A stretch of 64,000 nucleotides of DNA from NCBI GenBank assembly GCA_025024175.1, contig QCXZ01000064.1:16926001-16990000 (forward strand). Reading direction: 5' to 3'. The position numbers were made by a program, and so were the translations under genes. The DNA is from Rhyzopertha dominica. Its lineage: Eukaryota; Arthropoda; Insecta; Coleoptera; Bostrichidae. Position 1 is the stretch's first letter; each line of letters starts with the position of its first letter. Below the pieces are notes generated by a model. The model was given only the letters and a program-made list of their open reading frames with translations. It did no database searches and was not told the DNA's origin. Positions 18,571 to 57,310 of the stretch are shown here, one piece after another.

Positions 18571-19143
18571 GTTGTACACTCAAAGACTTAATTGAAGAAA
18601 CGCCTAGTTTTGGCACACGAATTGGGCAACGGTAGATGGCGGCAACCAATTCGTTACAGAGCCGATAACCGGCATTACGCCTTTCTCCGTTAGGAGCGGT
18701 AGAGTAGTTTCCCTAAACACAGAAGAACGAGCAATCACGGCAACGGTCTACCAAATGATTTATTAGGGTAATATTTGCATATTTAAATGGTATTATGGAC
18801 CCGTCCGCAACCACAGGTAGTTTTAACAAACCAGTTTCTTTGAACCACCGGTACCGTGTTATGTAAACGCAAAACTCATTGCAAACTGAGGAAAGTGATG
18901 GCTAATATTTGTCTTGAAAATCAAAACCCACACATTTCACTATTTAAACAATGTAGGAACAAAATATTATTTTTTGTAATCTTTTTGCTACAGTTATTTC
19001 TGTTATTATGTTGGTGGAACAAATTTTCAATAATGAAATTATTTATCTTCTTTAGTGTTACATTTTATATTTTTGGTTGGCATCATTTTACCGTAGGCTC
19101 ATTTTGCGGTTACTTTAGCATGAATGTTTGTTAGTTACTAGTT
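18571..19143 (+). repeat. Left arm of a 2.4-kb foldback (long terminal inverted repeat) element
   Basis: This arm is an inverted copy of 20205-20957. Matching starts at TGTACACTCAAAGACTTAA and continues, at roughly 85% identity by eye, to AGTTACTAGTTA. Shared blocks include GTAGAGTAGTTTCCCTAAA, TGATTTATTAGGGTAATATT, TGGACCCGTCCGCAACCACA and TTGTCTTGAAAATCAAAACC. The arm itself contains an ACGAATTGG...CCAATTCGT hairpin near 18618-18656. No clear target duplication flanks the element. It could be a foldback transposon or a DNA transposon with long terminal repeats; no known family is recognised. Confidence 0.8.
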
Positions 19144-20204
19144 ACTGAAAACCATTAATTTCTTAAATATAAAGATCCATTTTTCCTGAATTTCGACATA
19201 TTTACCACCATGTTCTGACACTCGATTATCTAGCCTACGCAAACCTAAACCAAAAATAGTTTTCTCAATAAGTTGTTGGGTGTTATAATAATTATTGATA
19301 CAGTCTTCAAACTTTAAGTTTGGTGTGTCACAAATGAGCGTTTCATATTTGCATCCTACAGGGTATTTCAATATACAAGTAGGTTAAGCAATTTCATTAT
19401 TAACATTTTAAATGTTTATCGTTTAACGTTTAGTGATAGTAATTCATAACATAAAACATAAAACGTCGCCGCAGTGCACAGCGTTTTTTTAGCGATCATT
19501 CTTATACGTCAATTACTTGGAGCCTTGTTTCGGACAATGAACAAAAAAATATTTTTAAATGAAGATGCATCAAACTAATATATTACAAATTGATTAGTTT
19601 ATTTACAATTACATTACATCATTGTTTCGTAGTTTAACATTTTGTTACCTATGTTGGTACTATAGTTGTACGGTAATATTGTTTTTCATGCATATTTATC
19701 TGTTTCTCTCTCGCTCTTTCATTGTGTGTCATGAGTAGTATATCTGTTTTCTGATATGTATACTTATGCGGAGACTCTCTAGTCGATTGCTTGAAGAAGT
19801 ATACTCCTTGCTATTTTCCATCAAAAGTTTTTACTTTTATATGTGTATTACTATTACTTTTGTTTTTATTATTATCAACTGTAAATTTTAGGAGCACAAG
19901 TGAAACGATCATTTGTCAAGCTGCATATTGATAAATGTGCCTTTCTTTCTCCATTTAATATATCTTTATCTAAACTATTAACAAAAACCGCCGATGCAAA
20001 AAAAACACATGAAATTGATTGGAATTAGTACAGATTTAGAAAATTAAAAAGCGTTAACTTCTTCATGTCGACGCAACGTTTTGGCTTTACAGACGTTTTA
20101 CATAATTTTTTTAATATTGTGAGAATCTTGTTGTAAAGTTGTTTTGCTGGCAATTTAGTGAAAAACATTGCCTTCTCTAAGAAAAAGTATATAAACTATA
20201 TATC
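19144..20204. other. Central loop of the foldback element
   Basis: About 1.06 kb of single-copy, AT-rich sequence lies between the arms. A minus-strand frame (19138-19371, 77 codons) contains LGLRRLDNRVSEHGGKYVE, which faintly recalls the C-terminal R...C...GG.(F/Y)(V/F)E of some mariner-related transposases. The match is too weak to name a gene. Nothing else coding is visible. Confidence 0.35.
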
Positions 20205-20311
20205 TAACTAGTAAGTAACAAAACATTCATGCTAAAGTGACTGCAAAACAAGCTTACGCCAAAATTATGCCAATCAAAAATTAAATCTAACACTAAAGAA
20301 GATGAAGAATG

Positions 20312-20492
20312 AAATTTAGGATGGCAATGCCATCTGTCAGCATTACACTGACATGATATATATAAGCAAAACCAGTTCTATGTCGTGTTGTCTACACTAG
20401 ACCTAAACTGCACTGATGAGCTGTAATGACAGCGAAATAGTACTATCTGCAGTTGGTTGAGGTGTAGACAGCACAACATAGACATGCATTTT
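20312..20492 (+). mobile_element. Retrozyme-like element (181 bp) with 13-bp target duplication
   Basis: It is flanked by perfect copies of AAGATGAAGAATG (20299-20311 and 20493-20505). The opposite foldback arm shows the same locus without insert and with one site copy (19037-19049, rc with three changes), which fixes the ends. It begins AAATTTAGGATGGCAATGCC, continues with short hairpins (GATGGC-AAT-GCCATC at 20320-20334), and ends with a hammerhead ribozyme and GACATGCATTTT. There is no coding capacity. A 13-bp duplication suggests target-primed or similar integration by enzymes supplied elsewhere. Two related units occur at 24938-25414. Small size, ribozyme and target duplication match what is described for retrozymes. 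A SINE-like element with an embedded ribozyme is the alternative. Confidence 0.8.
20377..20482 (+). ncRNA. Type I hammerhead ribozyme, intact core
   Basis: The core CTGATGA is at 20413-20419. Stem II is G-CTGT (20420-20424) with ACAG-C (20429-20433) and loop AATG. GAAA is at 20434-20437. Stem III is TAG (20438-20440) with CTA (20443-20445) and a two-base loop TA. The triplet AUC ends at 20447, the expected cleavage point. Stem I is AACTGCA (20406-20412) with TGCAGTT (20448-20454), seven perfect pairs. An outer helix extends stem I: 20377-20397 pairs with 20462-20482 over 21 positions with one mismatch and one G-U. All invariant hammerhead positions are present. The very short stem III implies weak activity as a monomer and better activity as a dimer, as known for other short-stem-III hammerheads. 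Confidence 0.9.
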
Positions 20493-20957
20493 AAGATGAA
20501 GAATGTCATTATTGAAAACCTGTCGTTAAAGGTCCACAAACATAATAACAGAAATAGCTGTAGCAAAAATATTACAAAAAATATATTTTGTTCCTGCATT
20601 GTTTAAATATTCAAATGTGTGGGTTTTGATTTTCAAGACAAATATTAACCATCACTTTCACATAACACAGTACCGGCGGTTCAAAGGAACTGCTTTTTTA
20701 AAACTTTACCTGTGGTTGCGGACGGGTCCATAATGCCCATTTAAATATGCAAATATTACCCTAATAAATCATCTGGTAGATCGTTGCCCTGATTGGTCGT
20801 TCTTCTATATTTAGGGAAACTACTCTACCGCTTCCTAGCCGAGGAAGGTGCAATGCCGTTTATCGGCTGAGTAACGAATTGGTTACCGCCATCTACCGTT
20901 ACCCAATTCGTGTGCCAAAGCTAGGCGTTTCTTCAGTTAAGTCTTTGAGTGTACACA

Positions 20958-21905: not shown

Positions 21906-24900
21906 ATATAAATGAGTATAGTTTGTTCCTTTGAGTCTTGTAGCGTACGTTTATTCATTGTTGCTTAGGATCCAGATAACATGATTTTTCAATAATAGTG
22001 TACTTGTAATTTATTACCCATCGTGGTTTATATTTATGAACAACTGTTTCAATTTCAGGTTTCCACTGTCTTCTATAAGCTTTGTTATAGCATTCGTTAT
22101 TTCTAACTGGTTATAATTACACCAATCAGCTATCTTTCTACATAATTATACAAAAACAGAGCAACTTATAACACAGCACTGTTTTCTACTAGGTGTTTTG
22201 GATATAGCGGAAGACAAAAAAAAAACTGGATATTGTTGGTAGCACCAACAAGCACCAGCAGTAGAACTCTGTCACATAGCATGCGTAAATATTAAGACCT
22301 ACAATACTGACTCGATTCACAAATGCAGAAAATATTAGTTTAGGTAAGAATTGTAACCTACATCTACAAGGACAAGAATTAAAGACGTCTAAAAATAGCC
22401 AACAAATTCGATAATAGACATTAAGGTTAAATCAACAACTCCAACAAGTAGGGATGCTAACGATACTTCGATTGCCAGCCCTTATATTGATAATTTTTAT
22501 AGATATTTGATATTATATGTAGTATCGCATCAAAAGGTTTAGTAACTATAGCACCATCTACGCGTTAAGTGTAAAAAATACAAAACATCAATATTAATAT
22601 ATATAGAATATAAATGTAAACAGTGCTACAGCATGTACACACGGTGTCTGGAGATTGTTGTCGTCAACGTTCGTAAATTTAACCCTACAATTTGAGGTTA
22701 TTTATAATTTATACAAAGAAACAGGAACATTTCTGCAGTTTCATACTCAGAGTTGCCAGATAAATAGTCCCTTCAAAAGTAGGATAGGATGGAGAAAACA
22801 GTAGATGTGTCTATCCAAAGAGTAGAATTTTGATTACTATGTTTTTATAAACAAAATATAATAACAACAAAACAATAAATTATAATATTGTGCAATAAGG
22901 AAAGAAATAAATTGAAGTAATTTATCTTGTTGCAGGATCTGTTTGTTCGGATTTTGTTGTATACACTTGTATATTTAAGTAGATAAAAACGGGTAAATAG
23001 TACCTGTTTATGTTTTTTGATACACCATCTAGGGACACCAATCGAAATTCCGGTATTCCGTGTATCCATATTTTTTTGACACGGTATTGTTCGGTATCGA
23101 TACTGGCAAGCAAAAATATCGACAATAAAAAAATGTCAATACTTCAGTCAAATTCTACGAGCCCTGCCAACAAGTTACCACATAACTATAGCAAAACGTT
23201 TTACAAAAATTAAACGTGCGGTCTTTACAATGACGCTTCTGCCACTTGATTAACATTCCTAAAGCATAGCATTCTTATTACATTTCTTTTTAAAAACCGT
23301 CTTTGAAGTGCACGTCAACAATTCTGTTAGAAAAACTCGTAACATTTATCCTCATAGAAGGTACCGCAATATCAGAACCACTTGCAAACTGGGACAACCG
23401 CCAATTTAAAGTGTGCTAACGCAATTACTCGTTGTGGCCCCGATTTCTCAAAATGGGATTAGTCTCACAAATGTAACGCATTTTTCATACTGCTCCGCAA
23501 GAAATACAAACCAACGTCTATCAATCTTTTTACAAGACGTCGCCGGCGAACTGTTGTAGTGTTCCGCGGCTTGGGGGACAAAAACAATAGACAACGACAA
23601 CGCCAATTGTGCACTGAACGACGCTTGCAAGTTGCGGCGCTTCGCTTAATGCAGGCCATTTGAGAGGCATTTGCGATAAAGGAATCAGGGTAGTCACAGT
23701 GGACTACGCGAGCGTTAGTGCGTTTCATTTTGCCTGCCTGCTCTCACAGTAGTTGCTATATTCTATCCTAAATATATTATCTACCGTTAGACACCCAACT
23801 ATGACATGTAAATTATGCTGAACATATAAGCCAATGGATGTTTCATTCTAAGATATTTTATAAAGTAGGAACTCAAAAATCACCGTCTTGTCTCCATAAG
23901 GATAAAGAAATCTCAATTCATTAATAGCCTTGGTGAAAAAGGTTGGAGGTTAACTTTTTACGACGCAAATAAACTTCTGACAGAGAAAGGAGAGCATAGT
24001 TTATATACTAGCTATCGAACACGCTGAAAATATGACTGGTAGAATGAACGAACGCGCTGGGTCAAGCGATACCTCCAATGATTATTTTAAGACATGGAAA
24101 AAATACCTATTTGAACAACCTTCCTCTTAATTTTTTTTTAGAAATTTCTGTTAAAGGTTGGCGACTATATTAACTGAGAATTTTTCAAACTTTAAAGCAG
24201 CGGTAAGGGTTCATATCATCTTGACATCATTTGGAATGTTGAAGAAACCGAAACGTGGAATATGTCCTTGTGCTGTTCACCATCAAATGCAACGCTTTAC
24301 TAGGAAAAAGAACCGCTAAATTATTGAAAAACTGCTGTAGTTTATTGCTGGATTGTCATAACAACGTATACAGACAGAATGCTTTCGAGTAACCACTAAC
24401 TAACTAACAGCCCTCCCCGAAAATGCATTTAAGCCAGGGATACTTACACTCAAATAACAATTAATAGAATCGTAGCCATAAAATTCTTAAGCTGAAAGCA
24501 TTACTCTCATGACCTTTAAAGCCTAAACTGATCGATTTCGTCAACGAAATTAGCAGAACCTATTCCTGGGATGTTCCACATGGACGGATAACTAACCTTC
24601 TGAAGTTCAAAAAATGTGTAGACTGAACTATCCGCCGGACTCTCACAAATGAGAAAGTATTCCAGGTCACACAATCTTGTAACTAATATTTAAAGATGAC
24701 CTTCAATTGTGTGTACATCTTTAAGTGATTATTTCCTTCATCTGTTAAATCGAAATTTTGGAAATTCGGTATATGTTTCCTTAATTTTCTGTTCTAAAGT
24801 TTTATTCAAATTCAAATACAACTCGACCATGATAAATTAGCGACTATCATTCTCTCAATTTTTCTCGACTGCACTTCTCCAACATTTGACTCGACCAAAC

Positions 24901-25051
24901 TGGCATTAATAATTTTAGAGAACTTTAGACACTTAAGTAAGAATGCCATCTATCAGCATCACACTGACATGATGACAAAGCCACCTAGCTGCCATTATGG
25001 GATCTACTTCCTAAAGGAAGTGACCTGTAGCCTGACAAATTGGCATGCACC

Positions 25052-25135
25052 TGCATACTTCAATTTGGCGAGCTATAATGATAGCGAAATAGATCTATCT
25101 ACAGTTGGTTGCGGTGCAGATAGCACAGCATAGAC
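25052..25135 (+). ncRNA. Degenerate hammerhead ribozyme
   Basis: Stem II (GCTAT-AATG-ATAGC), GAAA (25086-25089), stem III TAG-AT-CTA and the AUC triplet (ending 25099) are intact. The core, however, reads TTGGCGA (25065-25071) instead of CTGANGA, changing the invariant C3 and A6. The 5' strand of stem I (CTTCAAT side) no longer pairs with TACAGTT. Loss of invariant bases should abolish cleavage. Confidence 0.75.
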
Positions 25136-25305
25136 ATGCATTTTAATGCAGGGTACAGGTTACTTCCTTTAGGAAGTAGATCCTATAATGGCAGCTAGGT
25201 GACTTTGTCACTATGTCAGTACTATGCTGACAGGTGGCATTGCCATCTAAATTCTTACTTACATCATACCAAACCTTTGGTATATAGGCATCTAGGTTGT
25301 ATGCC

Positions 25306-25395
25306 GTGCTGTCTGCACTAGACCTAAACTGCACTGACGAGCTATAACGATAGCGAAATAGATCTATCTGCAGTTGGATGCGGTGCAGACAGCAC
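25306..25395 (+). ncRNA. Type I hammerhead ribozyme, intact core
   Basis: The core CTGACGA is at 25334-25340. Stem II is GCTAT (25341-25345) with ATAGC (25350-25354) and loop AACG. GAAA is at 25355-25358. Stem III is TAG with CTA and loop AT. The AUC triplet ends at 25368. Stem I is AACTGCA (25327-25333) with TGCAGTT (25369-25375). The outer helix GTGCTGTCTGCAC (25306-25318) pairs perfectly over 13 bp with 25383-25395. Compared with the 20.4-kb copy, stem II differs at paired positions (CTGT/ACAG versus CTAT/ATAG), a compensatory change that supports the fold. Confidence 0.9.
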
Positions 25396-28005
25396 AGTAT
25401 AGACATGCATTTTAACTTAAGACACTTATCAAATTATCAATGACAGTTTGGTCTCGACAGTCGCGCACTCCCGAAAAATTGATTACAATAAATATTTGAC
25501 TATTTATCAAGATTTTCTAATATTACCGTTAAAAAACCACATTAGACTAAATCACTGTATATTATTTTGCGTAATATAATGCTTAATAAGTCTTATTTTA
25601 GGCGGTAATGTTAGTTAATGATGATAGCAGCCATTAAAGAAAAGTGTTATTAATGGCACGTTTCCATGAGGTTGAAATAAAGGTTAATAACGATATAAGT
25701 GTGGTTCATTTTTTTTTTAGCAAGTTACTGCAGCCAATAAATTTTAAATACAATTTTCACTATTTCTATTTTTGTTATTTATTTGCAATATTCTCAAACA
25801 ATAAGAAAATGTACCTAAATAGCTATAAGCTAGTGCTGTTGTCTAAATATTTAGAATACGCTAGTAGCATCGTACCAAACCTGAAAGGCAACGCTGTTTG
25901 TTACAAATGTACTGACTGCGGACGCAGAGCAGAGAATCAAAATGTCCCACGTGCAAGCAAGTACTAGTTTGAATTTATGGTTAGATTGGAATGGTGCGGT
26001 AACCATGGCAGCCACATATAGCAACCGTGTAGGGCATAAAGCTTGCACCCATGTAATCTTGGTTGTCTAAGCTTGCAAAAAATAACAGAAGCTAGTTAGA
26101 GTAAGGAAAGTGTGCATGCTATATGTGACGTAGTTATAATATACATGATACATATTAATGGGGTACTTGCACTAAATTTCATTTTTTGAAAAATCTGGCA
26201 TAATTCAATGGTCATTATTAAGTTTATTTTACAGACGAAAAGCTAGCAATTGAAAATGCATAAAATTATTAATTAAAGATTGCATTTGGCCTTTATATTT
26301 CACGTGACATCAAAACGATGTCTACGTCACTATAGTTAAGTCAGTTATGCGCATACTCGACGCCCGCAAAACGTAAACAAACGTATAAACGCTGAAACAA
26401 CGTGTGACGAGTGGCAATGACCTCCAAAAGTAGAAGGGCATGCGACGTTCCCTTTAACTTGTTTATTTGGGCTATTCTGACGTCATAGCAATTCAGTGAT
26501 CGTTTTGGCGCGCAGATGATGGTTTCAAATTTTAACATAATTAAAAAATACTTTGCACACGTAATTATATGACCAGGACGATTAAATTAAGTACATAAAA
26601 TTTTTTTTGTGCAAGTAGCTCATTGAATTTAACTTGGGTGAGCGTCATCCTAGAGCCCGCCTTCAGGAGTCGTCACTGACTTAGGAGATTAAAAAGTCAA
26701 TAAAAAATTTAGTATACTATACGTCTGGAAACAACCTTAACATGCAATTAATTTAATTGCTTTACAATGACATTGGTCCGCAGGTTTCATCTAAACGGTT
26801 ACTATAGAACTGGAGTAATCTATTTATGGAATTGAACTATTATATAGTATTTTATTAAATTTTTAAGGTGACATTGATCTATCCGCTCTAAAAGTAGCAT
26901 TAAATTTCTATCGTCGGCTGCGAGTAACACAAACGTGTCCTTTGCTGGGCAAGAAACTTTCACATCAATTATAGAGCAAGGGACATAACCCAATAACAAA
27001 GGAGAAGTGGCCAATAAATTCTCTATAGAGTTAGTACATTCGATCTGGTGTTCTCACAGGACAGAACAGGTCGTGAGCGCTGAATGAAAATAATGGAGTG
27101 CTTTCAGGGTTTCAATGGTGTTAGACGACATGTTAGTAATCCTATCTGTCCAATAAGGTTCAAGTTATTGCAGCGTATGCTATCCCCGTAGATAGATATT
27201 ACGCAGCTATAATTCAATAGACCCGGCTATGTAAGGCACCTGGATAATAAACTAATTAGGTAATTAACGTATTCAGGGAATTTCATTAATGTGCTTGGTG
27301 TAATAGACGTGTTTTAGATAAGCAACATGGGCTTTATAGTTAACCGAATGGTGCGGTGCGCGAAGCACTTCGTAGACAGATTCCGCCCGTTACATATTCA
27401 TGATGTTCTTTGTGTGTCGCTGAATCAAACTGGGAAACTTCCAGCAAGTTTCCACTTTGGGGAGGCGACTGGGACATTACGGCTTGTCGATCCAAAGTGA
27501 TATGCTTTGCTTATTGGAAGTCACTGTTATTGCTCGACTGCAACCTGCAGTAGAGCTTTTGGGTTTGCTGAGCGTAGTTTTGGGTGTAATGAAGTTAAAA
27601 ACATTTAATGACAAAAATATGATACATAATTGGAAAATTATGAGGAATAAGAAATATCTAAAGTGTGACTGAACGACAATCGAACACGTGGGAATGAACG
27701 AAACATGCAGCAATAGCCTCTTCGCGCTAGAGTAACAGAAACCCCTTTGCGCACGCTCACACGTCAAGGTCAAGTATATTTTAATGCTTGGTCATCCATG
27801 TTAATAAGCAAATAAGGAATACAGTGTACAAATCAGATATACTCTTTCTCTTTTTCATTGGCAGTAATCGGTTAGAGTATAAAAATCCATGGTGTCTACA
27901 TTTTTGATAAAAATCTATATGAAAAAGGTTAGTCATTCAAAGTAATCTTATTTCGCCTTGCTTTTTTTCGTTGCACCTTTCCAATGGGCTTAATCGTTCA
28001 CTGTA

Positions 28006-28130
28006 TGTAGGTCCCTGTACATACCGCCCGTAGCAATCTGTGTCGTAGTTCGTAAAGCCATCTCTAGATGGCTGATAGGCGATTTACACAAAATGACTCC
28101 CAAAGTGCGGCATAATAAAACATGTCCACA
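28006..28130 (+). repeat. Interspersed repeat, also at 55541-55665
   Basis: Similarity to 55541-55665 covers ATGTAGGT, GTGTCGTAGTTCGTAA versus ATGTCGTAGTTCGTAA, CTAGATGGCTGATAGGCGATT versus a close match, ACAAAATGA and AAGTGCGGC. It includes a perfect GCCATCT-CT-AGATGGC type hairpin near 28057-28072. The family is not recognised. A third copy at 40160-40284 is simply this one in copy B. Confidence 0.6.
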
Positions 28131-31007
28131 CCTCCCGTGTCTGTTTTAACCCGGTAAGTACCTTTTTAGATAATCTGTATTTACTGAGAATTAACAGATG
28201 ACATTGCGCTGTATAAAAATTTATGTTTAAGGACCATTTCATGTATATATAAAACAATGCGACGATTTGATTTCTGGTTTTTGCATGTCTGTGTACATTC
28301 ATATTGCCTAAAGACAAAGCCGTTGCTTCCCTGTGACTAAACTCTTGTTCTCATAAATAAAATGCAACTGGTTTAATGCATAAGAGAAATTAGAAGGTAG
28401 TGGAGGATGCAGATTATGGCACAGTAATGAAATCTCTAATTTGAAAAAAAAACATTGCAAGCACCAGAAAATGTTGGGCGGCTAGTATTCCTCATTAGTA
28501 GGCTATAAAAGTTGTGATGTTCAGTATGAGTATGTGAATCACCCAAAACTGGTCTTCTGGAGTAGGAGCAGTTTGCAGATACATTTTATACGTAACATTA
28601 AATTTCTTACGGAAAATGAGGTGTCCTGATTAACATGAGAAATAAAGTAACTGCAAACACTTCGTCTTAGCAACATTGATTGTTGCCTTCTTCCCCACAA
28701 AAAATAACAATTCTTTAAAATAAACACAGAGTATATTTATTTAAGTATCTTGGAAGCGCATGTTAAAAGCGAATTCCTGGTTGTGCAATGGTGGTGATAT
28801 TTAAACAAACGCTACAATGAATTCAAAATTTATTTCTAAATCATTACTTTTGATAATCTGCCAAGAAAATAGTTTAAATTTGTTGAATACAGTAGTTAGC
28901 CGTCGGGCCTCTAGTGTTCTCTTTTAGAAATTAGGTTTAAAATGAATGATGGTATGAATGAACGAAAGACATATAAATTTTGTTTTAAGGTGGATGCATT
29001 TGTATGGCTGACATAGTGCATTATCATTATCTTCTGCTGATGCCTTTGTGCTTAGCTTACTGTATAGTTGTATATTAATAATGTAATGAGAAGATATTTA
29101 TGTTTCTCGCTTAGTATAAAGTGAATGTTTAATTTTCAAAGAACTTCGATTATACCAGCTTAAATCTGCGCTCACAAAAGAGCATGGAATAATAGCATAA
29201 TAAAGCCGCTAAAATGATTTAAATCAGTTACTGTATTAAATGACTGAGCCACTTGACATTTCCATCTTTTTACTATAGAGGGCGGGCCCCTCGTACGGAA
29301 GGGGTGCTTTTGTGTAGGGCAAACCGCGGAGGTCAAGAGGCGGAAACAGCCATTTGTCTCAAGGCAGACCGGGTGCAATACATAAATGAGCTCGGCTTAG
29401 AGGTGGGAACGAGTCCTTAAGAAAGACGACTGTCAAATAAAATATTACGGGATAACAAATATTCAGACCTTTCGCTATGACAGCGGTTGCCGTACAGAAA
29501 TGTACAGTGATGAGCGCTGGCATATTTATGTGGATAAATCCCGAACCTTTTGACATAGTAATAATTTTGTAGTTGCCAATTTATTTAATTTTATAGTAAT
29601 GCAAATAGAAACTTATATAAATATCGGCTGTATATGTGCTAGATTTCGTAAAGAATTTTTAAGTTCTGATGTGCGGTAATCATATTGGATGAACGGCCAA
29701 ACTGAGTTTACATCACAGAAAAGTATATTCTGTGGCTTCACTGGATCCCCGTGTATAAGCCTTAATTTGCTTCAGTAGTCTTCCATCGTAATCTGTCAAC
29801 TAAAACTTTTCTCGCAGAAGTTGACCAAAGCGCTCTAGTCCTTTGCCTTTCTCCTATATGCATCGTACCATTTAAGTGCTCTGTCTGTGAATATATCCAA
29901 AGCTGGCGTATAAAGCTTTTTCTTAGATACATCTCGAGCAATTGTTAACCCTTCGAGTTGCTCTAAACCTGCATTCAACGATATGTTTTCCGCTCCACTA
30001 AAATAAGAGATCCATTTTGCTACGGTAATACTCTATGGTTTACACCTTCTTCCTGAGAATGATTTATTATTGATTAATTGTAACTGCTCTATTTCGGCGA
30101 AGTGGAATTATTATCAGAATTATCATCTACCTAACGACGAGGGAATAATTATGACATCATTGCCGCCCAGATTATCGTTACAATTAAATAATCTTTTTTT
30201 TGTTCCCAAAACTATCAGCGTTGTCGCTGATGTAATAGATGTAATTTTAAGAACTTTGCTGTACTGGACTAGTCATTTATTTGGTAATATACACACTTTA
30301 CACCATTTGCTTGACTTTACTGTGTGGAGTCACTTGAAGTTAATCAGTCGGAATGTTAGAATTGTAGCATAATACTTATAATTATCGTACTTTATAATTT
30401 TGTTGATTATATTTAAAGAGATATTTCATTTTGTAACTAGCAGGAATAACCAAATTTTGCAAATACACAGACTTGCATTACATCATAAAACATAGGTCCA
30501 AGCAGACCTCAAAAGTGATAATTATATGTCTCACGGTACCTATTGAAATCTCCAATATATAGGTACAGCCTGCGCTGTATCCTGAATTAGTACTTCTGTT
30601 GGTTTGTACATATGCTGGTGAATAATGTTTCTTCATTTGGTATCATCATCATGTGGATGCCTTCCAGGGCTAATGTTGAGACGAGCTATTGTCACTTTTG
30701 TTGCAGACATACCGATCAAGTCACACCTTTGAATTCAGTTTTTTTAGTCCTGTTTTGTTAGTAGTTAATACTATGGGTAATTCGATAACATACTGGAAAA
30801 AGTTGGGAGTCGTAGCAGGGTTAGAACTATAGTCGTGAGCTTGTTGTCCTGATTCGGGTCTAATGGCCGTCGTCGGTTGGAATTGCTTCCTAACGTTCGC
30901 TAGCACGAGTGGCAAGCTTCTTCAGAGGTCCTTCCATCTCCGGTGCTGTACTGTAGACTGTTAACATAACAGCTTTTCTTTTAAGGGACATTCTAACCCT
31001 TTCCAGA

Positions 31008-31107
31008 NNNNNNNNNNNNNNNNNNNNNNNNNNNNNNNNNNNNNNNNNNNNNNNNNNNNNNNNNNNNNNNNNNNNNNNNNNNNNNNNNNNNNNNNNNNNN
31101 NNNNNNN
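31008..31107. other. Assembly gap (100 N)
   Basis: Exactly 100 Ns, the usual placeholder for a gap of unknown size. It separates copy A of the 9.1-kb repeat from the truncated errantivirus. Confidence 0.99.
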
Positions 31108-34062: not shown

Positions 34063-37000
34063 ATATAAATGAGTATAGTTTGTTCCTTTGAGTCTTGTAG
34101 CGTACGTTTATTCATTGTTGCTTAGGATCCAGATAACATGATTTTTCAATAATAGTGTACTTGTAATTTATTACCCATCGTGGTTTATATTTATGAACAA
34201 CTGTTTCAATTTCAGGTTTCCACTGTCTTCTATAAGCTTTGTTATAGCATTCGTTATTTCTAACTGGTTATAATTACACCAATCAGCTATCTTTCTACAT
34301 AATTATACAAAAACAGAGCAACTTATAACACAGCACTGTTTTCTACTAGGTGTTTTGGATATAGCGGAAGACAAAAAAAAAACTGGATATTGTTGGTAGC
34401 ACCAACAAGCACCAGCAGTAGAACTCTGTCACATAGCATGCGTAAATATTAAGACCTACAATACTGACTCGATTCACAAATGCAGAAAATATTAGTTTAG
34501 GTAAGAATTGTAACCTACATCTACAAGGACAAGAATTAAAGACGTCTAAAAATAGCCAACAAATTCGATAATAGACATTAAGGTTAAATCAACAACTCCA
34601 ACAAGTAGGGATGCTAACGATACTTCGATTGCCAGCCCTTATATTGATAATTTTTATAGATATTTGATATTATATGTAGTATCGCATCAAAAGGTTTAGT
34701 AACTATAGCACCATCTACGCGTTAAGTGTAAAAAATACAAAACATCAATATTAATATATATAGAATATAAATGTAAACAGTGCTACAGCATGTACACACG
34801 GTGTCTGGAGATTGTTGTCGTCAACGTTCGTAAATTTAACCCTACAATTTGAGGTTATTTATAATTTATACAAAGAAACAGGAACATTTCTGCAGTTTCA
34901 TACTCAGAGTTGCCAGATAAATAGTCCCTTCAAAAGTAGGATAGGATGGAGAAAACAGTAGATGTGTCTATCCAAAGAGTAGAATTTTGATTACTATGTT
35001 TTTATAAACAAAATATAATAACAACAAAACAATAAATTATAATATTGTGCAATAAGGAAAGAAATAAATTGAAGTAATTTATCTTGTTGCAGGATCTGTT
35101 TGTTCGGATTTTGTTGTATACACTTGTATATTTAAGTAGATAAAAACGGGTAAATAGTACCTGTTTATGTTTTTTGATACACCATCTAGGGACACCAATC
35201 GAAATTCCGGTATTCCGTGTATCCATATTTTTTTGACACGGTATTGTTCGGTATCGATACTGGCAAGCAAAAATATCGACAATAAAAAAATGTCAATACT
35301 TCAGTCAAATTCTACGAGCCCTGCCAACAAGTTACCACATAACTATAGCAAAACGTTTTACAAAAATTAAACGTGCGGTCTTTACAATGACGCTTCTGCC
35401 ACTTGATTAACATTCCTAAAGCATAGCATTCTTATTACATTTCTTTTTAAAAACCGTCTTTGAAGTGCACGTCAACAATTCTGTTAGAAAAACTCGTAAC
35501 ATTTATCCTCATAGAAGGTACCGCAATATCAGAACCACTTGCAAACTGGGACAACCGCCAATTTAAAGTGTGCTAACGCAATTACTCGTTGTGGCCCCGA
35601 TTTCTCAAAATGGGATTAGTCTCACAAATGTAACGCATTTTTCATACTGCTCCGCAAGAAATACAAACCAACGTCTATCAATCTTTTTACAAGACGTCGC
35701 CGGCGAACTGTTGTAGTGTTCCGCGGCTTGGGGGACAAAAACAATAGACAACGACAACGCCAATTGTGCACTGAACGACGCTTGCAAGTTGCGGCGCTTC
35801 GCTTAATGCAGGCCATTTGAGAGGCATTTGCGATAAAGGAATCAGGGTAGTCACAGTGGACTACGCGAGCGTTAGTGCGTTTCATTTTGCCTGCCTGCTC
35901 TCACAGTAGTTGCTATATTCTATCCTAAATATATTATCTACCGTTAGACACCCAACTATGACATGTAAATTATGCTGAACATATAAGCCAATGGATGTTT
36001 CATTCTAAGATATTTTATAAAGTAGGAACTCAAAAATCACCGTCTTGTCTCCATAAGGATAAAGAAATCTCAATTCATTAATAGCCTTGGTGAAAAAGGT
36101 TGGAGGTTAACTTTTTACGACGCAAATAAACTTCTGACAGAGAAAGGAGAGCATAGTTTATATACTAGCTATCGAACACGCTGAAAATATGACTGGTAGA
36201 ATGAACGAACGCGCTGGGTCAAGCGATACCTCCAATGATTATTTTAAGACATGGAAAAAATACCTATTTGAACAACCTTCCTCTTAATTTTTTTTAGAAA
36301 TTTCTGTTAAAGGTTGGCGACTATATTAACTGAGAATTTTTCAAACTTTAAAGCAGCGGTAAGGGTTCATATCATCTTGACATCATTTGGAATGTTGAAG
36401 AAACCGAAACGTGGAATATGTCCTTGTGCTGTTCACCATCAAATGCAACGCTTTACTAGGAAAAAGAACCGCTAAATTATTGAAAAACTGCTGTAGTTTA
36501 TTGCTGGATTGTCATAACAACGTATACAGACAGAATGCTTTCGAGTAACCACTAACTAACTAACAGCCCTCCCCGAAAATGCATTTAAGCCAGGGATACT
36601 TACACTCAAATAACAATTAATAGAATCGTAGCCATAAAATTCTTAAGCTGAAAGCATTACTCTCATGACCTTTAAAGCCTAAACTGATCGATTTCGTCAA
36701 CGAAATTAGCAGAACCTATTCCTGGGATGTTCCACATGGACGGATAACTAACCTTCTGAAGTTCAAAAAATGTGTAGACTGAACTATCCGCCGGACTCTC
36801 ACAAATGAGAAAGTATTCCAGGTCACACAATCTTGTAACTAATATTTAAAGATGACCTTCAATTGTGTGTACATCTTTAAGTGATTATTTCCTTCATCTG
36901 TTAAATCGAAATTTTGGAAATTCGGTATATGTTTCCTTAATTTTCTGTTCTAAAGTTTTATTCAAATTCAAATACAACTCGACCATGATAAATTAGCGAC

Positions 37001-37207
37001 TATCATTCTCTCAATTTTTCTCGACTGCACTTCTCCAACATTTGACTCGACCAAACTGGCATTAATAATTTTAGAGAACTTTAGACACTTAAGTAAGAAT
37101 GCCATCTATCAGCATCACACTGACATGATGACAAAGCCACCTAGCTGCCATTATGGGATCTACTTCCTAAAGGAAGTGACCTGTAGCCTGACAAATTGGC
37201 ATGCACC

Positions 37208-37291
37208 TGCATACTTCAATTTGGCGAGCTATAATGATAGCGAAATAGATCTATCTACAGTTGGTTGCGGTGCAGATAGCACAGCATAGAC
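37208..37291 (+). ncRNA. Degenerate hammerhead ribozyme, copy in repeat B
   Basis: Identical to the copy at 25052-25135, with the same damaged TTGGCGA core and disrupted stem I. Confidence 0.7.
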
Positions 37292-37461
37292 ATGCATTTT
37301 AATGCAGGGTACAGGTTACTTCCTTTAGGAAGTAGATCCTATAATGGCAGCTAGGTGACTTTGTCACTATGTCAGTACTATGCTGACAGGTGGCATTGCC
37401 ATCTAAATTCTTACTTACATCATACCAAACCTTTGGTATATAGGCATCTAGGTTGTATGCC

Positions 37462-37551
37462 GTGCTGTCTGCACTAGACCTAAACTGCACTGACGAGCTA
37501 TAACGATAGCGAAATAGATCTATCTGCAGTTGGATGCGGTGCAGACAGCAC
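37462..37551 (+). ncRNA. Type I hammerhead ribozyme, copy in repeat B
   Basis: Identical to 25306-25395. The core CTGACGA is at 37490-37496, GAAA at 37511-37514, and the expected cleavage is after 37524. Confidence 0.9.
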
Positions 37552-40159
37552 AGTATAGACATGCATTTTAACTTAAGACACTTATCAAATTATCAATGAC
37601 AGTTTGGTCTCGACAGTCGCGCACTCCCGAAAAATTGATTACAATAAATATTTGACTATTTATCAAGATTTTCTAATATTACCGTTAAAAAACCACATTA
37701 GACTAAATCACTGTATATTATTTTGCGTAATATAATGCTTAATAAGTCTTATTTTAGGCGGTAATGTTAGTTAATGATGATAGCAGCCATTAAAGAAAAG
37801 TGTTATTAATGGCACGTTTCCATGAGGTTGAAATAAAGGTTAATAACGATATAAGTGTGGTTCATTTTTTTTTTAGCAAGTTACTGCAGCCAATAAATTT
37901 TAAATACAATTTTCACTATTTCTATTTTTGTTATTTATTTGCAATATTCTCAAACAATAAGAAAATGTACCTAAATAGCTATAAGCTAGTGCTGTTGTCT
38001 AAATATTTAGAATACGCTAGTAGCATCGTACCAAACCTGAAAGGCAACGCTGTTTGTTACAAATGTACTGACTGCGGACGCAGAGCAGAGAATCAAAATG
38101 TCCCACGTGCAAGCAAGTACTAGTTTGAATTTATGGTTAGATTGGAATGGTGCGGTAACCATGGCAGCCACATATAGCAACCGTGTAGGGCATAAAGCTT
38201 GCACCCATGTAATCTTGGTTGTCTAAGCTTGCAAAAAATAACAGAAGCTAGTTAGAGTAAGGAAAGTGTGCATGCTATATGTGACGTAGTTATAATATAC
38301 ATGATACATATTAATGGGGTACTTGCACTAAATTTCATTTTTTGAAAAATCTGGCATAATTCAATGGTCATTATTAAGTTTATTTTACAGACGAAAAGCT
38401 AGCAATTGAAAATGCATAAAATTATTAATTAAAGATTGCATTTGGCCTTTATATTTCACGTGACATCAAAACGATGTCTACGTCACTATAGTTAAGTCAG
38501 TTATGCGCATACTCGACGCCCGCAAAACGTAAACAAACGTATAAACGCTGAAACAACGTGTGACGAGTGGCAATGACCTCCAAAAGTAGAAGGGCATGCG
38601 ACGTTCCCTTTAACTTGTTTATTTGGGCTATTCTGACGTCATAGCAATTCAGTGATCGTTTTGGCGCGCAGATGATGGTTTCAAATTTTAACATAATTAA
38701 AAAATACTTTGCACACGTAATTATATGACCAGGACGATTAAATTAAGTACATAAAATTTTTTTGTGCAAGTAGCTCATTGAATTTAACTTGGGTGAGCGT
38801 CATCCTAGAGCCCGCCTTCAGGAGTCGTCACTGACTTAGGAGATTAAAAAGTCAATAAAAAATTTAGTATACTATACGTCTGGAAACAACCTTAACATGC
38901 AATTAATTTAATTGCTTTACAATGACATTGGTCCGCAGGTTTCATCTAAACGGTTACTATAGAACTGGAGTAATCTATTTATGGAATTGAACTATTATAT
39001 AGTATTTTATTAAATTTTTAAGGTGACATTGATCTATCCGCTCTAAAAGTAGCATTAAATTTCTATCGTCGGCTGCGAGTAACACAAACGTGTCCTTTGC
39101 TGGGCAAGAAACTTTCACATCAATTATAGAGCAAGGGACATAACCCAATAACAAAGGAGAAGTGGCCAATAAATTCTCTATAGAGTTAGTACATTCGATC
39201 TGGTGTTCTCACAGGACAGAACAGGTCGTGAGCGCTGAATGAAAATAATGGAGTGCTTTCAGGGTTTCAATGGTGTTAGACGACATGTTAGTAATCCTAT
39301 CTGTCCAATAAGGTTCAAGTTATTGCAGCGTATGCTATCCCCGTAGATAGATATTACGCAGCTATAATTCAATAGACCCGGCTATGTAAGGCACCTGGAT
39401 AATAAACTAATTAGGTAATTAACGTATTCAGGGAATTTCATTAATGTGCTTGGTGTAATAGACGTGTTTTAGATAAGCAACATGGGCTTTATAGTTAACC
39501 GAATGGTGCGGTGCGCGAAGCACTTCGTAGACAGATTCCGCCCGTTACATATTCATGATGTTCTTTGTGTGTCGCTGAATCAAACTGGGAAACTTCCAGC
39601 AAGTTTCCACTTTGGGAGGCGACTGGGACATTACGGCTTGTCGATCCAAAGTGATATGCTTTGCTTATTGGAAGTCACTGTTATTGCTCGACTGCAACCT
39701 GCAGTAGAGCTTTTGGGTTTGCTGAGCGTAGTTTTGGGTGTAATGAAGTTAAAAACATTTAATGACAAAAATATGATACATAATTGGAAAATTATGAGGA
39801 ATAAGAAATATCTAAAGTGTGACTGAACGACAATCGAACACGTGGGAATGAACGAAACATGCAGCAATAGCCTCTTCGCGCTAGAGTAACAGAAACCCCT
39901 TTGCGCACGCTCACACGTCAAGGTCAAGTATATTTTAATGCTTGGTCATCCATGTTAATAAGCAAATAAGGAATACAGTGTACAAATCAGATATACTCTT
40001 TCTCTTTTTCATTGGCAGTAATCGGTTAGAGTATAAAAATCCATGGTGTCTACATTTTTGATAAAAATCTATATGAAAAAGGTTAGTCATTCAAAGTAAT
40101 CTTATTTCGCCTTGCTTTTTTTTCGTTGCACCTTTCCAATGGCTTAATCGTTCACTGTA

Positions 40160-40284
40160 TGTAGGTCCCTGTACATACCGCCCGTAGCAATCTGTGTCGT
40201 AGTTCGTAAAGCCATCTCTAGATGGCTGATAGGCGATTTACACAAAATGACTCCCAAAGTGCGGCATAATAAAACATGTCCACA
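40160..40284 (+). repeat. Interspersed repeat, copy in repeat B
   Basis: Same sequence as 28006-28130, related to 55541-55665. Confidence 0.55.
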
Positions 40285-43168
40285 CCTCCCGTGTCTGTTT
40301 TAACCCGGTAAGTACCTTTTTAGATAATCTGTATTTACTGAGAATTAACAGATGACATTGCGCTGTATAAAAAATTTATGTTTAAGGACCATTTCATGTA
40401 TATATAAAACAATGCGACGATTTGATTTCTGGTTTTTGCATGTCTGTGTACATTCATATTGCCTAAAGACAAAGCCGTTGCTTCCCTGTGACTAAACTCT
40501 TGTTCTCATAAATAAAATGCAACTGGTTTAATGCATAAGAGAAATTAGAAGGTAGTGGAGGATGCAGATTATGGCACAGTAATGAAATCTCTAATTTGAA
40601 AAAAAAACATTGCAAGCACCAGAAAATGTTGGGCGGCTAGTATTCCTCATTAGTAGGCTATAAAAGTTGTGATGTTCAGTATGAGTATGTGAATCACCCA
40701 AAACTGGTCTTCTGGAGTAGGAGCAGTTTGCAGATACATTTTATACGTAACATTAAATTTCTTACGGAAAATGAGGTGTCCTGATTAACATGAGAAATAA
40801 AGTAACTGCAAACACTTCGTCTTAGCAACATTGATTGTTGCCTTCTTCCCCACAAAAAATAACAATTCTTTAAAATAAACACAGAGTATATTTATTTAAG
40901 TATCTTGGAAGCGCATGTTAAAAGCGAATTCCTGGTTGTGCAATGGTGGTGATATTTAAACAAACGCTACAATGAATTCAAAATTTATTTCTAAATCATT
41001 ACTTTTGATAATCTGCCAAGAAAATAGTTTAAATTTGTTGAATACAGTAGTTAGCCGTCGGGCCTCTAGTGTTCTCTTTTAGAAATTAGGTTTAAAATGA
41101 ATGATGGTATGAATGAACGAAAGACATATAAATTTTGTTTTAAGGTGGATGCATTTGTATGGCTGACATAGTGCATTATCATTATTCTTCTGCTGATGCC
41201 TTTGTGCTTAGCTTACTGTATAGTTGTATATTAATAATGTAATGAGAAGATATTTATGTTTCTCGCTTAGTATAAAGTGAATGTTTAATTTTCAAAGAAC
41301 TTCGATTATACCAGCTTAAATCTGCGCTCACAAAAGAGCATGGAATAATAGCATAATAAAGCCGCTAAAATGATTTAAATCAGTTACTGTATTAAATGAC
41401 TGAGCCACTTGACATTTCCATCTTTTTACTATAGAGGGCGGGCCCCTCGTACGGAAGGGGTGCTTTTGTGTAGGGCAAACCGCGGAGGTCAAGAGGCGGA
41501 AACAGCCATTTGTCTCAAGGCAGACCGGGTGCAATACATAAATGAGCTCGGCTTAGAGGTGGGAACGAGTCCTTAAGAAAGACGACTGTCAAATAAAATA
41601 TTACGGGATAACAAATATTCAGACCTTTCGCTATGACAGCGGTTGCCGTACAGAAATGTACAGTGATGAGCGCTGGCATATTTATGTGGATAAATCCCGA
41701 ACCTTTTGACATAGTAATAATTTTTGTAGTTGCCAATTTATTTAATTTTATAGTAATGCAAATAGAAACTTATATAAATATCGGCTGTATATGTGCTAGA
41801 TTTCGTAAAGAATTTTTAAGTTCTGATGTGCGGTAATCATATTGGATGAACGGCCAAACTGAGTTTACATCACAGAAAAGTATATTCTGTGGCTTCACTG
41901 GATCCCCGTGTATAAGCCTTAATTTGCTTCAGTAGTCTTCCATCGTAATCTGTCAACTAAAACTTTTCTCGCAGAAGTTTGACCAAAGCGCTCTAGTCCT
42001 TTGCCTTTCTCCTATATGCATCGTACCATTTAAGTGCTCTGTCTGTGAATATATCCAAAGCTGGCGTATAAAGCTTTTTCTTAGATACATCTCGAGCAAT
42101 TGTTAACCCTTCGAGTTGCTCTAAACCTGCATTCAACGATATGTTTTCCGCTCCACTAAAATAAGAGATCCATTTTGCTACGGTAATACTCTATGGTTTA
42201 CACCTTCTTCCTGAGAATGATTTATTATTGATTAATTGTAACTGCTCTATTTCGGCGAAGTGGAATTATTATCAGAATTATCATCTACCTAACGACGAGG
42301 GAATAATTATGACATCATTGCCGCCCAGATTATCGTTACAATTAAATAATCTTTTTTTTGTTCCCAAAACTATCAGCGTTGTCGCTGATGTAATAGATGT
42401 AATTTTAAGAACTTTGCTGTACTGGACTAGTCATTTATTTGGTAATATACACACTTTACACCATTTGCTTGACTTTACTGTGTGGAGTCACTTGAAGTTA
42501 ATCAGTCGGAATGTTAGAATTGTAGCATAATACTTATAATTATCGTACTTTATAATTTTGTTGATTATATTTAAAGAGATATTTCATTTTGTAACTAGCA
42601 GGAATAACCAAATTTTGCAAATACACAGACTTGCATTACATCATAAAACATAGGTCCAAGCAGACCTCAAAAGTGATAATTATATGTCTCACGGTACCTA
42701 TTGAAATCTCCAATATATAGGTACAGCCTGCGCTGTATCCTTGAATTAGTACTTCTGTTGGTTTTGTACATATGCTGGTGAATAATGTTTCTTCATTTGG
42801 TATCATCATCATGTGGATGCCTTCCAGGGCTAATGTTGAGACGAGCTATTGTCACTTTTGTTGCAGACATACCGATCAAGTCACACCTTTGAATTCAGTT
42901 TTTTAGTCCTGTTTTGTTAGTAGTTAATACTATGGGTAATTCGATAACATACTGGAAAAAGTTGGGAGTCGTAGCAGGGTTAGAACTATAGTCGTGAGCT
43001 TGTTGTCCTGATTCGGGTCTAATGGCCGTCGTCGGTTGGAATTGCTTCCTAACGTTTCGCTAGCACGAGTGGCAAGCTTCTTCAGAGGTCCTTCCATCTC
43101 CGGTGCTGTACTGTAGACTGTTAACATAACAGCTTTTCTTTTAAGGGGACATTCTAACCCTTTCCAGA

Positions 43169-55665: not shown

Positions 55666-56286
55666 AAAAATGGAATGAAGGAAGAACAAGCTGTCGTTAG
55701 TTGAAGAGGAAAATAATAACTGTGACATATGTACATAGATGTTTACCGCTGAAATGCAATCTTCTCATAGTCATAGTGACAATTGTGTTTCCNCTTATAA
55801 TCTACTCTAATGATTCCGAATAGTAATAGCTGCCGACCTAGAGTTACTTAAGATNATTTCGGATACAGGCAGTTAACACGATCACATCACGTCAAAATCA
55901 GTATCACCCATTGCGCAATGGTCAGTTTAGAATATGTGTATCTGTTGCATATCGATTAGATATAATTTAATAGGCCGTTTTGTGATTCTTGTTGGGTTCC
56001 ATCAAAATTACCTAGTTTGCAGCTATAATTATTATTCCTCGACTGCTGTTAGTTCGTTCGTATTTTCTCTCTTGCTGACATTACTCGTCAAATCTGCAAT
56101 CGGTGGCAATGTTCGTTAATGTATCCATCAACTAAGCAAAGTTTTTTTTTGTTTTGAGAATTTGTATGAGCCATGTTGGACGATATCCTTTACTTTATAA
56201 AAACTGTATCAAAATGCAACATCATATATAAGATACGGCAAATAAGGCATATTTTAGTTATTAAAGAATAAATTAATTATTATATA
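55666..56286. other. No recognisable gene
   Basis: Contains ambiguous bases at 55793 and 55855 and a 61-codon frame (55934-56119) without a known domain. Confidence 0.4.
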
Positions 56287-57310
56287 CAGGGTCCGCCACC
56301 TAAAACTACCCAGACTCGTATTTTCTTATTTTTTTTAGGTACAACTTTAAGTTATATGTCAAATTGTAGGTCTTTTTGAACTCTTTAAAAAGAGCATAGT
56401 GAGAGTCCAATTTTTTTCCACATTATGATATTTCGAAAATTAAGTTACTTTTTGTAAATATTTTTTAAACCTTACCCTGTATAATAAATATTGCTTCCTA
56501 GTTGGATGCCGACTTTTGTCTTCTTCAATTTGTGTCATTACCATGTATGCCTAATTTTTACTCCTACTGAATGAAAAACAAGAAAAAACTAGTCGCCGCC
56601 ATGTTCTGTTATAGGGCTGTTTACAATTTTTTAAGTGTTAGTTTAGTAGCTTATTAAGGTACAAATTATACCTACATACCTATCGCTGCACACAAAACCC
56701 CAAAATTTTGAGTAATTTTTAAATAAATCAAGTACAAAGTTCGTTCTAAATAGAGAGAGGCTAGAAAACGAAACCTTGCGATGAGCCTAGTTTGGCTTTC
56801 TACATCGCGCACTAGCCTCGTCGCAGGGTTTCGTTTTCTAGCCTCTCCCTCTTTAAAACGACCTTTGTACTTGATTATTTAAAAGCTACTTAAAATTTTG
56901 GGTTTTTTTGGGCAGCGATGGGTATGTAGGCACAATTTGTACCGTAATAAGCTTCTAAACTAACACTTAAAAATTCTGGACAACCCTATTTAGAAAACAA
57001 GGCGGCGACTAGTTTTTCTTGCCTTTCACTAGCAAAAGAGTAAAAATTACGCATACGTGGTAACGACACAAATTGAAGAAGAGAAAGGCCGGCATTCAAC
57101 TATGAAGCAATATTTATTATACGGGGTAAGGTTAAAAAATACTTACAAAAATTAAATTTAAATACAAAACTTGATCATCTGTAATTTGGACACCCACTAC
57201 GCTATCTTTAAAGAGTTTAAAAAGACCTACAGTTTCACATATAACTTAAGGATGTACCTAAAAAAAATAAAGAAAATACGAGCCTAGGGAGTTTTAGGTG
57301 GCGAACCCTG
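56287..57310 (+). mobile_element. 1.02-kb foldback element (near-complete palindrome)
   Basis: The left arm (56287-56791) and right arm (56811-57310) are inverted copies, nearly 90% identical at the outer ends by eye. Only about 19 bp of loop separates them (between GCCTAGT and ACTAGCC). The ends read CAGGGTCCGCCACCTAAAAC and, inverted, CAGGGTTCGCCACCTAAAAC. The flanks are TATA and TGTA, three of four identical, possibly an old TA-type target site. No coding frame is present. RNA from either strand would fold into a hairpin of about 500 bp. Confidence 0.85.

Follow-up and report, generated by a model that had tools for sequence, protein, structure and literature searches.

A short hammerhead-bearing insertion in a beetle genome is probably a head-to-head retrozyme insertion with a Penelope-like signature

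What is a 181-bp stretch of DNA that carries a hammerhead ribozyme motif, overlaps no listed open reading frame (ORF) of at least 120 aa and sits in an inverted repeat, and how did it come to be there? The stretch occupies positions 20312-20492 of a 64,000-nucleotide piece of the Rhyzopertha dominica genome (hereafter the window). A preliminary description, made from the letters of the window alone, took it for a monomer-sized copy of a mobile element that ends in its hammerhead. Herein, we compared the insert with its surroundings, with its relatives elsewhere in the genome, and with the Penelope-like elements (PLEs) of the same genome.

The insert and its target site

As the preliminary description stated, the insert is bounded by a perfect 13-bp target duplication and lies within one arm of an inverted repeat, or foldback, whose two arms align (Table 1). 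A flanking 11-bp repeat was found in only 1 of 20,000 random 181-bp intervals of the window. Excluding the insert and one copy of the duplication, the foldback arms share 496 matches, with 47 mismatches and 43 gap positions, and the other arm runs collinearly through the insertion site without interruption. The empty site reported there is therefore real, uninterrupted and collinear, but it has diverged and matches the duplication at only 10 of 13 positions. Since the arms are collinear and the empty site differs to this degree, the insertion most likely occurred after the arms existed and had begun to diverge. The discrete insertion had been called dated. It is younger than the onset of arm divergence, but this gives a relative order only and no absolute date. 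The foldback itself (18573-20955) has long inverted arms beginning near TGTACAC and a loop of approximately 1 kb; no direct repeat other than the one near TGTACAC was found at its ends, and it is only a candidate transposon.

Table 1. Coordinates of the insert, its target site and the related copies in the window
Feature	Position	Strand	Basis or remark
Foldback that received the insertion, left arm	18573-19144	.	
Empty homologous site in the other foldback arm	19037-19049	-	10/13 identical to the duplication
Foldback right arm, broken by the insert	20205-20955	.	
Left target-site duplication	20299-20311	.	AAGATGAAGAATG, 13/13 identical to 20493-20505
Fragment 1, antisense U145 to ~U191; outer end is a 3' end (site 2)	20312-20357	-	Alignment to unit
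Fragment 2, sense U217 to U350-352, with the hammerhead rod; outer end is a 3' end (site 1)	20359-20492	+	Alignment to unit
Long rod (extended stem I) with the hammerhead at its tip	20376-20482	+	Fold, covariation
Type I hammerhead core, predicted self-cleavage after C20447	20407-20453	+	Descriptor, Rfam, covariation
Right target-site duplication	20493-20505	.	Pairs with 20299-20311
Second, diverged family copy: antisense arm, truncated-hammerhead unit, complete-hammerhead unit	24936-25414	+	BLAST, unit alignment
Duplicate of the 24936-25414 copy	37092-37570	+	BLAST; 551/551 surrounding letters identical

The window holds a second, diverged copy of the same family, with a hammerhead core at 25334 and a predicted cut after 25368. 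A candidate 9-bp duplication, AGACACTTA, would bound it at 24936-25419, and an alternative 7-bp duplication, ACTTAAG, at 24938-25414. Given the 352-nt unit described below, this copy is not taken for one with a simple inversion of its 5' part. The sequence AGACATGCATTTTA ends all three hammerhead units of the insert and the second copy, one of which is truncated; it occurs in the window five times exactly, the duplicate included, and once more with two mismatches. At 46899 there is a further match of 24 bp, apparently by chance. The copy at 37092-37570 is a probable assembly or haplotype duplicate of the second copy. We counted the two as one locus, not as independent ones, because the former sits in a 9.1-kb stretch that is present twice (21906-31007 and 34063-43168, 99.85% identity), beside a gap of 100 Ns (31008-31107) at which the first copy of the stretch ends. 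An envelope-like ORF precedes the second copy of the stretch. The pair is probably a single locus whose two haplotypes were assembled in tandem, one of them carrying a gypsy-type insertion.

A Pfam search of the window covered seven of its 14 listed ORFs (ten proteins in all). An uninterrupted gypsy-type pol frame with RNase H and integrase domains spans 2-2032; its best relatives are 55-59% identical, and the named ones are mostly from insects and arachnids. A 443-aa frame at 32566-33894 matches Baculo_F (PF12259) and is envelope-like; we take this gene to be part of an errantivirus-type element. A long inverted repeat at 56280-57317, with arms 83% identical, gave a below-cut-off match to a microRNA model.

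A hammerhead unit in two opposed pieces

We searched the genome (479 Mb) with the insert. There were 529 first-look candidates, and scoring of 40 returned 66 matches, so the dispersed relatives that a mobile element should have are present. One locus (L044) contains three units in a single direction, of which two are complete (352 nt) and the last is truncated at U43, and three others (L036, L043, L046) contain two or three hammerhead units in succession. We numbered the unit U1-352, with U352 as the end of GCATTTTAA. Against this unit, the insert resolves into two pieces: 20301-20357 matches U145-201 on the minus strand (94.8%) and 20359-20494 matches U217-352 (97.8%), with GCATTTT[AA] at the site 1 outer end. 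Both pieces are truncated at the 5' side, they stand head to head, and the outer ends of the insert are both 3' ends. The insert is therefore not a monomer-sized copy, given the 352-nt family unit and the opposite orientation of its two truncated pieces. Nor does it end in the hammerhead: it has a single one, whose predicted cut site is intact in the interior, 45 nt inside the right end.

The target duplication at 20299-20311 resembles the retrozyme letters just past site 2, and the match continues to U201. The left boundary of the insert is fuzzy because of this resemblance, which hints that the target end could have annealed near site 2 through microhomology.

The hammerhead at the tip of the rod has every core letter (CTGATGA, GAAA and ATC) and three stems. 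A strict descriptor found three sites in the window (the insert, 25334 and its duplicate at 37490), and none in 100 simulated 128-kb sequences; in the genome, it was passed by 41 motifs across 30 loci, 34 of which are identical over 48 nt. The Rfam model Hammerhead_HH9 scored 28 bits on the insert, with an E-value of 5.1e-5 for 401 bases and 0.0081 for the whole window, against a curated cut-off of 52 bits; at its own cut-off, the Rfam scan reported nothing at the insert hammerhead. Covariation was assessed in an alignment of eight rows that takes in two divergent copies, L033 (77%) and L034 (87%). Both sides had changed in 6 of 41 pairs, which was matched by 2 of 500 shuffles. In addition, 97.2% of cells pair, and none of the 500 shuffles matched the pairing or the covariation score. 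Further pair types were not unusual (307 of 500 shuffles), and controls with slid structures gave no two-sided change. The signal in an alignment of three rows was weak, with 3 of 40 pairs changed on both sides and 40 of 500 shuffles matching. An alternative pairing of the core was favoured by 3.7 kcal/mol in the insert and 3.5 kcal/mol in the second copy by a nearest-neighbour model without tertiary contacts. Weighing the conserved core and the covariation against these energies, we regard self-cleavage as likely rather than proven. Stem III is palindromic in both window copies, and the palindrome is absent from the divergent L033 copy; a dimeric form of the ribozyme may be weakly suggested by folding. 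The L033 copy (L033:199-318), in which stems I and III show compensatory changes, is probably an older subfamily.

The 30 loci are the best of the 529 candidates ranked by similarity to the insert, and the choice is biased towards copies holding both pieces. With this bias, 22 of the 30 are head-to-head pairs (among L019-L048). One outer end lies at U349-352 in all 22, and the other at U191-203 in 19; the exceptions end at U160 (L027), U54 (L028) and U132 (L030). The remaining eight loci run in one direction (L029, L033, L034, L037, L039, L041, L043, L048), with the 3' end at U350-352 in seven and at U200 in one (L037). The preliminary description had expected shared 5' and 3' ends. Its left end turns out to be a second 3' end, and what the copies have in common is two alternative 3' ends. 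Target duplications of 10-15 bp, also expected there, are present at 20 of the 30 loci. The duplications measure at least 11 bp at 18 loci and at least 9 bp at 22; the same routine on shuffled flank pairs gave at least 11 bp in 0 of 1733 and at least 9 bp in 13 of 1733. The eight loci without a 9-bp repeat (L022, L026, L028, L030, L037, L041, L043, L048) were kept in all counts, and one of them (L030) has no duplication, its best repeat being 4 bp. The dispersed relatives and the duplications bear out the view of the insert as a discrete mobile hammerhead retroelement.

Further copies gave a similar picture. Five extra short regions, drawn from the ten remaining scored rod matches, all have the head-to-head join. 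Two of them are bounded in full, with ends at U352/U200 and U350/U202 and duplications of 12 and 14 bp, and the other three reach or almost reach the edge of the fetched sequence. Two more copies were found near matches to the GIY-YIG domain. The first (L073) is head to head, with ends at U351 and U191 (approximately U199 by its 10-bp duplication), and the second (L068) is one-directional, U209-352, with an 8-bp repeat. Retrozyme copies thus occur in 2 of 30 fetched 3.2-kb GIY-YIG loci (L073:2092-2514 and L068:2613-2756), which, roughly reckoned, is above the density expectation; PLE-rich regions may be shared targets.

Neither a tRNA (ARAGORN) nor an Rfam family at gathering score was found in the element, and a SINE was rejected accordingly. 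A PLE proper was also rejected, since the 181-bp insert and the 352-nt unit are too short for an ORF with reverse transcriptase (RT) and GIY-YIG. Two exact hammerhead patterns of the family had no match in viral contigs, prokaryote genome contigs and a phage collection. A looser pattern matched 18 viral contigs; an Rfam scan at gathering score of 12 of these 18 reported no hammerhead, three Pistol ribozymes and one tRNA. In three viral contigs (L001, L006, L007), a hammerhead-like motif lies less than approximately 1 kb from a Pistol ribozyme, and in another (L002) two hammerhead-like motifs lie 600 bp apart; the motif was read in 2 of the 18 contigs.

The two-ended signature and the enzyme behind it

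A search of the genome for GIY-YIG gave 2080 first-look candidates; 150 were scored and yielded 144 matches, many of equal score and several in close opposed pairs. We fetched 16 PLE regions. Opposed pairs are present in 15 of them and one element (L093) is unpaired; 13 regions were chosen for close opposed GIY-YIG pairs, so that the sample tests the tail rule and not the pair frequency. The 3' region common to the PLE copies stops at nearly the same position in each, give or take a few bases, and is followed by either flank or an AC-rich tail. Exactly one outer end is tailed in 15 of 15 pairs. Duplications of 12-16 bp flank 14 of the 15 pairs, and the remaining one (L081) has only 6 bp; the shuffled-flank control applies to the retrozyme loci only. 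The median duplication length is 13 bp for the retrozyme (18 sites of at least 11 bp) and 13 bp for the PLEs (14 sites; Mann-Whitney p = 0.90), and the AT content of the duplications is 0.80 and 0.86, respectively, with 0.63 for the window. ORFs of two PLE copies (L091 and L092) had no Pfam match of their own. A 761-aa PLE ORF has 191 relatives; among the 120 listed, RVT_1 is present in many and GIY-YIG in five, and an 857-aa Drosophila virilis protein is included. The RT assignment of the PLE ORFs is made because of the relatives with RVT_1. By these sequence matches, we identify the paired elements as a young GIY-YIG/RT (Penelope-like) family. The family is abundant: dozens of its copies closely resemble one another, and several form opposed pairs (contigs C64, C136, C3, C1, C53, C43 and C137). 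One stretch of the young PLE resembles a hammerhead, but since its 5' core letters are missing we do not count it as one.

The following course of events would account for the insert. Tandem units would be transcribed, cut by their hammerheads and probably ligated into 352-nt circles. An endonuclease would cut AT-rich DNA with a stagger of approximately 13 bp, as the duplications suggest, and both 3' ends of the target would prime reverse transcription on retrozyme RNA, as the anatomy of the insert suggests. One strand would start at site 1 (U352, 45-47 nt past the cut) and the other at site 2 (approximately U191-203). The two cDNAs would then join head to head with two outward 3' ends inside the duplication, an outcome that is itself observed. 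In the insert, site 1 would have yielded approximately 134-136 nt and site 2 approximately 46-57 nt. A cut linear monomer read from U352 would give only approximately 46 nt, so the sense piece of approximately 135 nt would need a circle, a multimer or uncut RNA as template. The uncut ribozyme site inside the insert points to the same three templates. The enzyme would most likely be of the PLE type, because PLE insertions in this genome bear the two-ended signature too.

We therefore put at roughly three in four the probability that an arthropod non-LTR retrozyme gave rise to the insert at 20312-20492 through two-strand priming, most likely by a PLE-type enzyme, and that the insert consists of two of its 5'-truncated pieces set head to head. 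We also think it reasonably probable, judging from the copies in this genome, that animal retrozymes are mobilised in trans by PLE machinery that primes on both strands at two fixed RNA sites, one per strand. This would leave the ribozyme site inside, and the head-to-head pairs could reseed circle-forming arrays.

The mover could instead be a LINE-type element, the antisense piece then being an ordinary 5' inversion from twin priming. LINEs also leave duplications of approximately 13 bp and 5' inversions. The retrozyme repeats of Nematostella, which have 15-bp duplications, have likewise been compared to LINEs in the available part of the source (PMC4918200). However, the rule of one end of each kind is common to the PLEs of this genome, which form the comparison set, and no poly-A or simple-repeat tail was present at the retrozyme ends inspected. 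Moreover, LINE inversion points scatter, whereas the second end keeps to the same 13-nt stretch in 19 of the 22 pairs. We consider a LINE unlikely and return to the PLE-type enzyme as the preferred mover.

It appears improbable that the 181-bp form makes up a monomeric retrozyme subfamily in its own right and copies itself. Seven other matches do cover element positions 1/2-181 at 87-92% (L020-L024, L026 and C136:6607561, the same as L099). Two of them (L021 and L023) have the internal junction U224/U126 in common at different sites, so a rearranged short form could itself have been copied. Apart from this pair, however, the internal junctions differ from copy to copy (145/217, 131/217, 126/224, 128/210), as do the duplications; two of the matches (L026, L099) lie within larger insertions, and the two pieces are opposite in direction relative to the 352-nt array unit.

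More doubtful still is a solo pseudo-LTR (pLTR) of a PLE in place of a retrozyme. Stem III of the insert is paired, unlike that of the minimal PLE hammerhead (PMC7761336, in part), which speaks against this reading, whereas solo and inverted pLTRs, together with inserts flanked by 8-10 bp duplications, are described for PLEs (PMC3846280), as are PLE hammerheads with insertions ending downstream of them (PMC11167929), in the available parts of these sources. The retrozyme unit, however, builds 352-nt tandem arrays of its own, and no sequence common to it and the examined PLE copies was found except a separate, adjoining retrozyme copy.

Finally, a DNA transposon or MITE, which would also be short, non-coding, flanked by a duplication and found within a foldback, can be set aside almost entirely: the two ends derive from different unit sites and do not form an inverted repeat, the position of 5' truncation varies widely among the copies, and such elements seldom have 13-bp duplications.

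Comparison with known systems

The kind of element is already known. In the passages available, the non-LTR retrozymes of metazoans occur as repeats in tandem, bear type I hammerheads and have a circular RNA form (Cervera and de la Pena 2020, PMC7229834); 15-bp duplications are given for Nematostella, and a tick retrozyme is also given (Cervera and de la Pena 2016, PMC4918200). The present family agrees with these accounts in its type I hammerhead, whose core is intact by the criterion of sequence, its non-coding unit of 352 nt (published, approximately 170-400), its tandem copies, its duplications longer than 4 bp and its RNA, which is predicted to be highly self-paired. In contrast, the published retrozymes are described as direct tandem repeats, and the same passages mention neither head-to-head pairs nor two fixed 3' ends, both of which are present here. 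In a literature search with subscription papers and supplements outside it, none of the papers listed contained both 'retrozyme' and 'head-to-head'. To our knowledge, head-to-head retrozyme copies have not been reported.

Other small hammerhead repeats resemble the family in part. The SMalpha SINE-like and W elements of Schistosoma are likewise small hammerhead repeats regarded as mobile (PMC8490949); the schistosome repeats carry tRNA sequence (PMC4918200), and none was detected in the retrozyme here. The pDo500 satellite of Dolichopoda cave crickets, likewise from an insect, is a hammerhead repeat whose stems show compensatory changes (PMC2837043). It is described as satellite DNA, and the words 'dispersed' and 'retro' are absent from the available text (PMC2837043). 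These statements hold for the parts of the sources at hand.

The likeness to PLEs concerns the insertion. In the passages available, the pLTRs of PLEs are inverted and one of them may carry a tail (PMC3846280); the protein of the anole PLE cuts both strands and extends them, has two adjacent internal start sites and in vitro mainly uses unprocessed RNA (PMC11167929). As in these accounts (PMC3846280, PMC11167929), the retrozyme leaves head-to-head inverted copies inside a duplication with one end extended and the other not, and its insertion end downstream of the hammerhead, its AT-rich target and its proposed starts on both strands are similar. The distances differ. The anole PLE starts 111-118 bp into the ORF, with the ribozyme cut 26 bp into it, so that insertions end approximately 85-92 nt past the cut (PMC11167929, in part), versus 45-47 nt for the retrozyme here, and the two ends of the retrozyme are approximately 150 nt apart on the unit, versus a PLE tail of 30-40 bp. 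Unlike PLEs, the retrozyme is non-coding, far shorter and paired in stem III, and has no sequence found in common with them.

In the available passages, the candidate movers of retrozymes are LINEs or PLEs, with PLEs as the strong one (PMC7229834, PMC7761336, PMC11722881), and the enzyme is left open (PMC7761336). As far as the search extended, both the architecture of the insertions and its agreement with PLEs are new. The paired two-site insertion signature offers a clue to the mover of animal retrozymes that can be read from any assembly. It also bears on the insertion of PLEs themselves, given that the small and abundant retrozyme insertions can provide many more junctions than full PLE copies.
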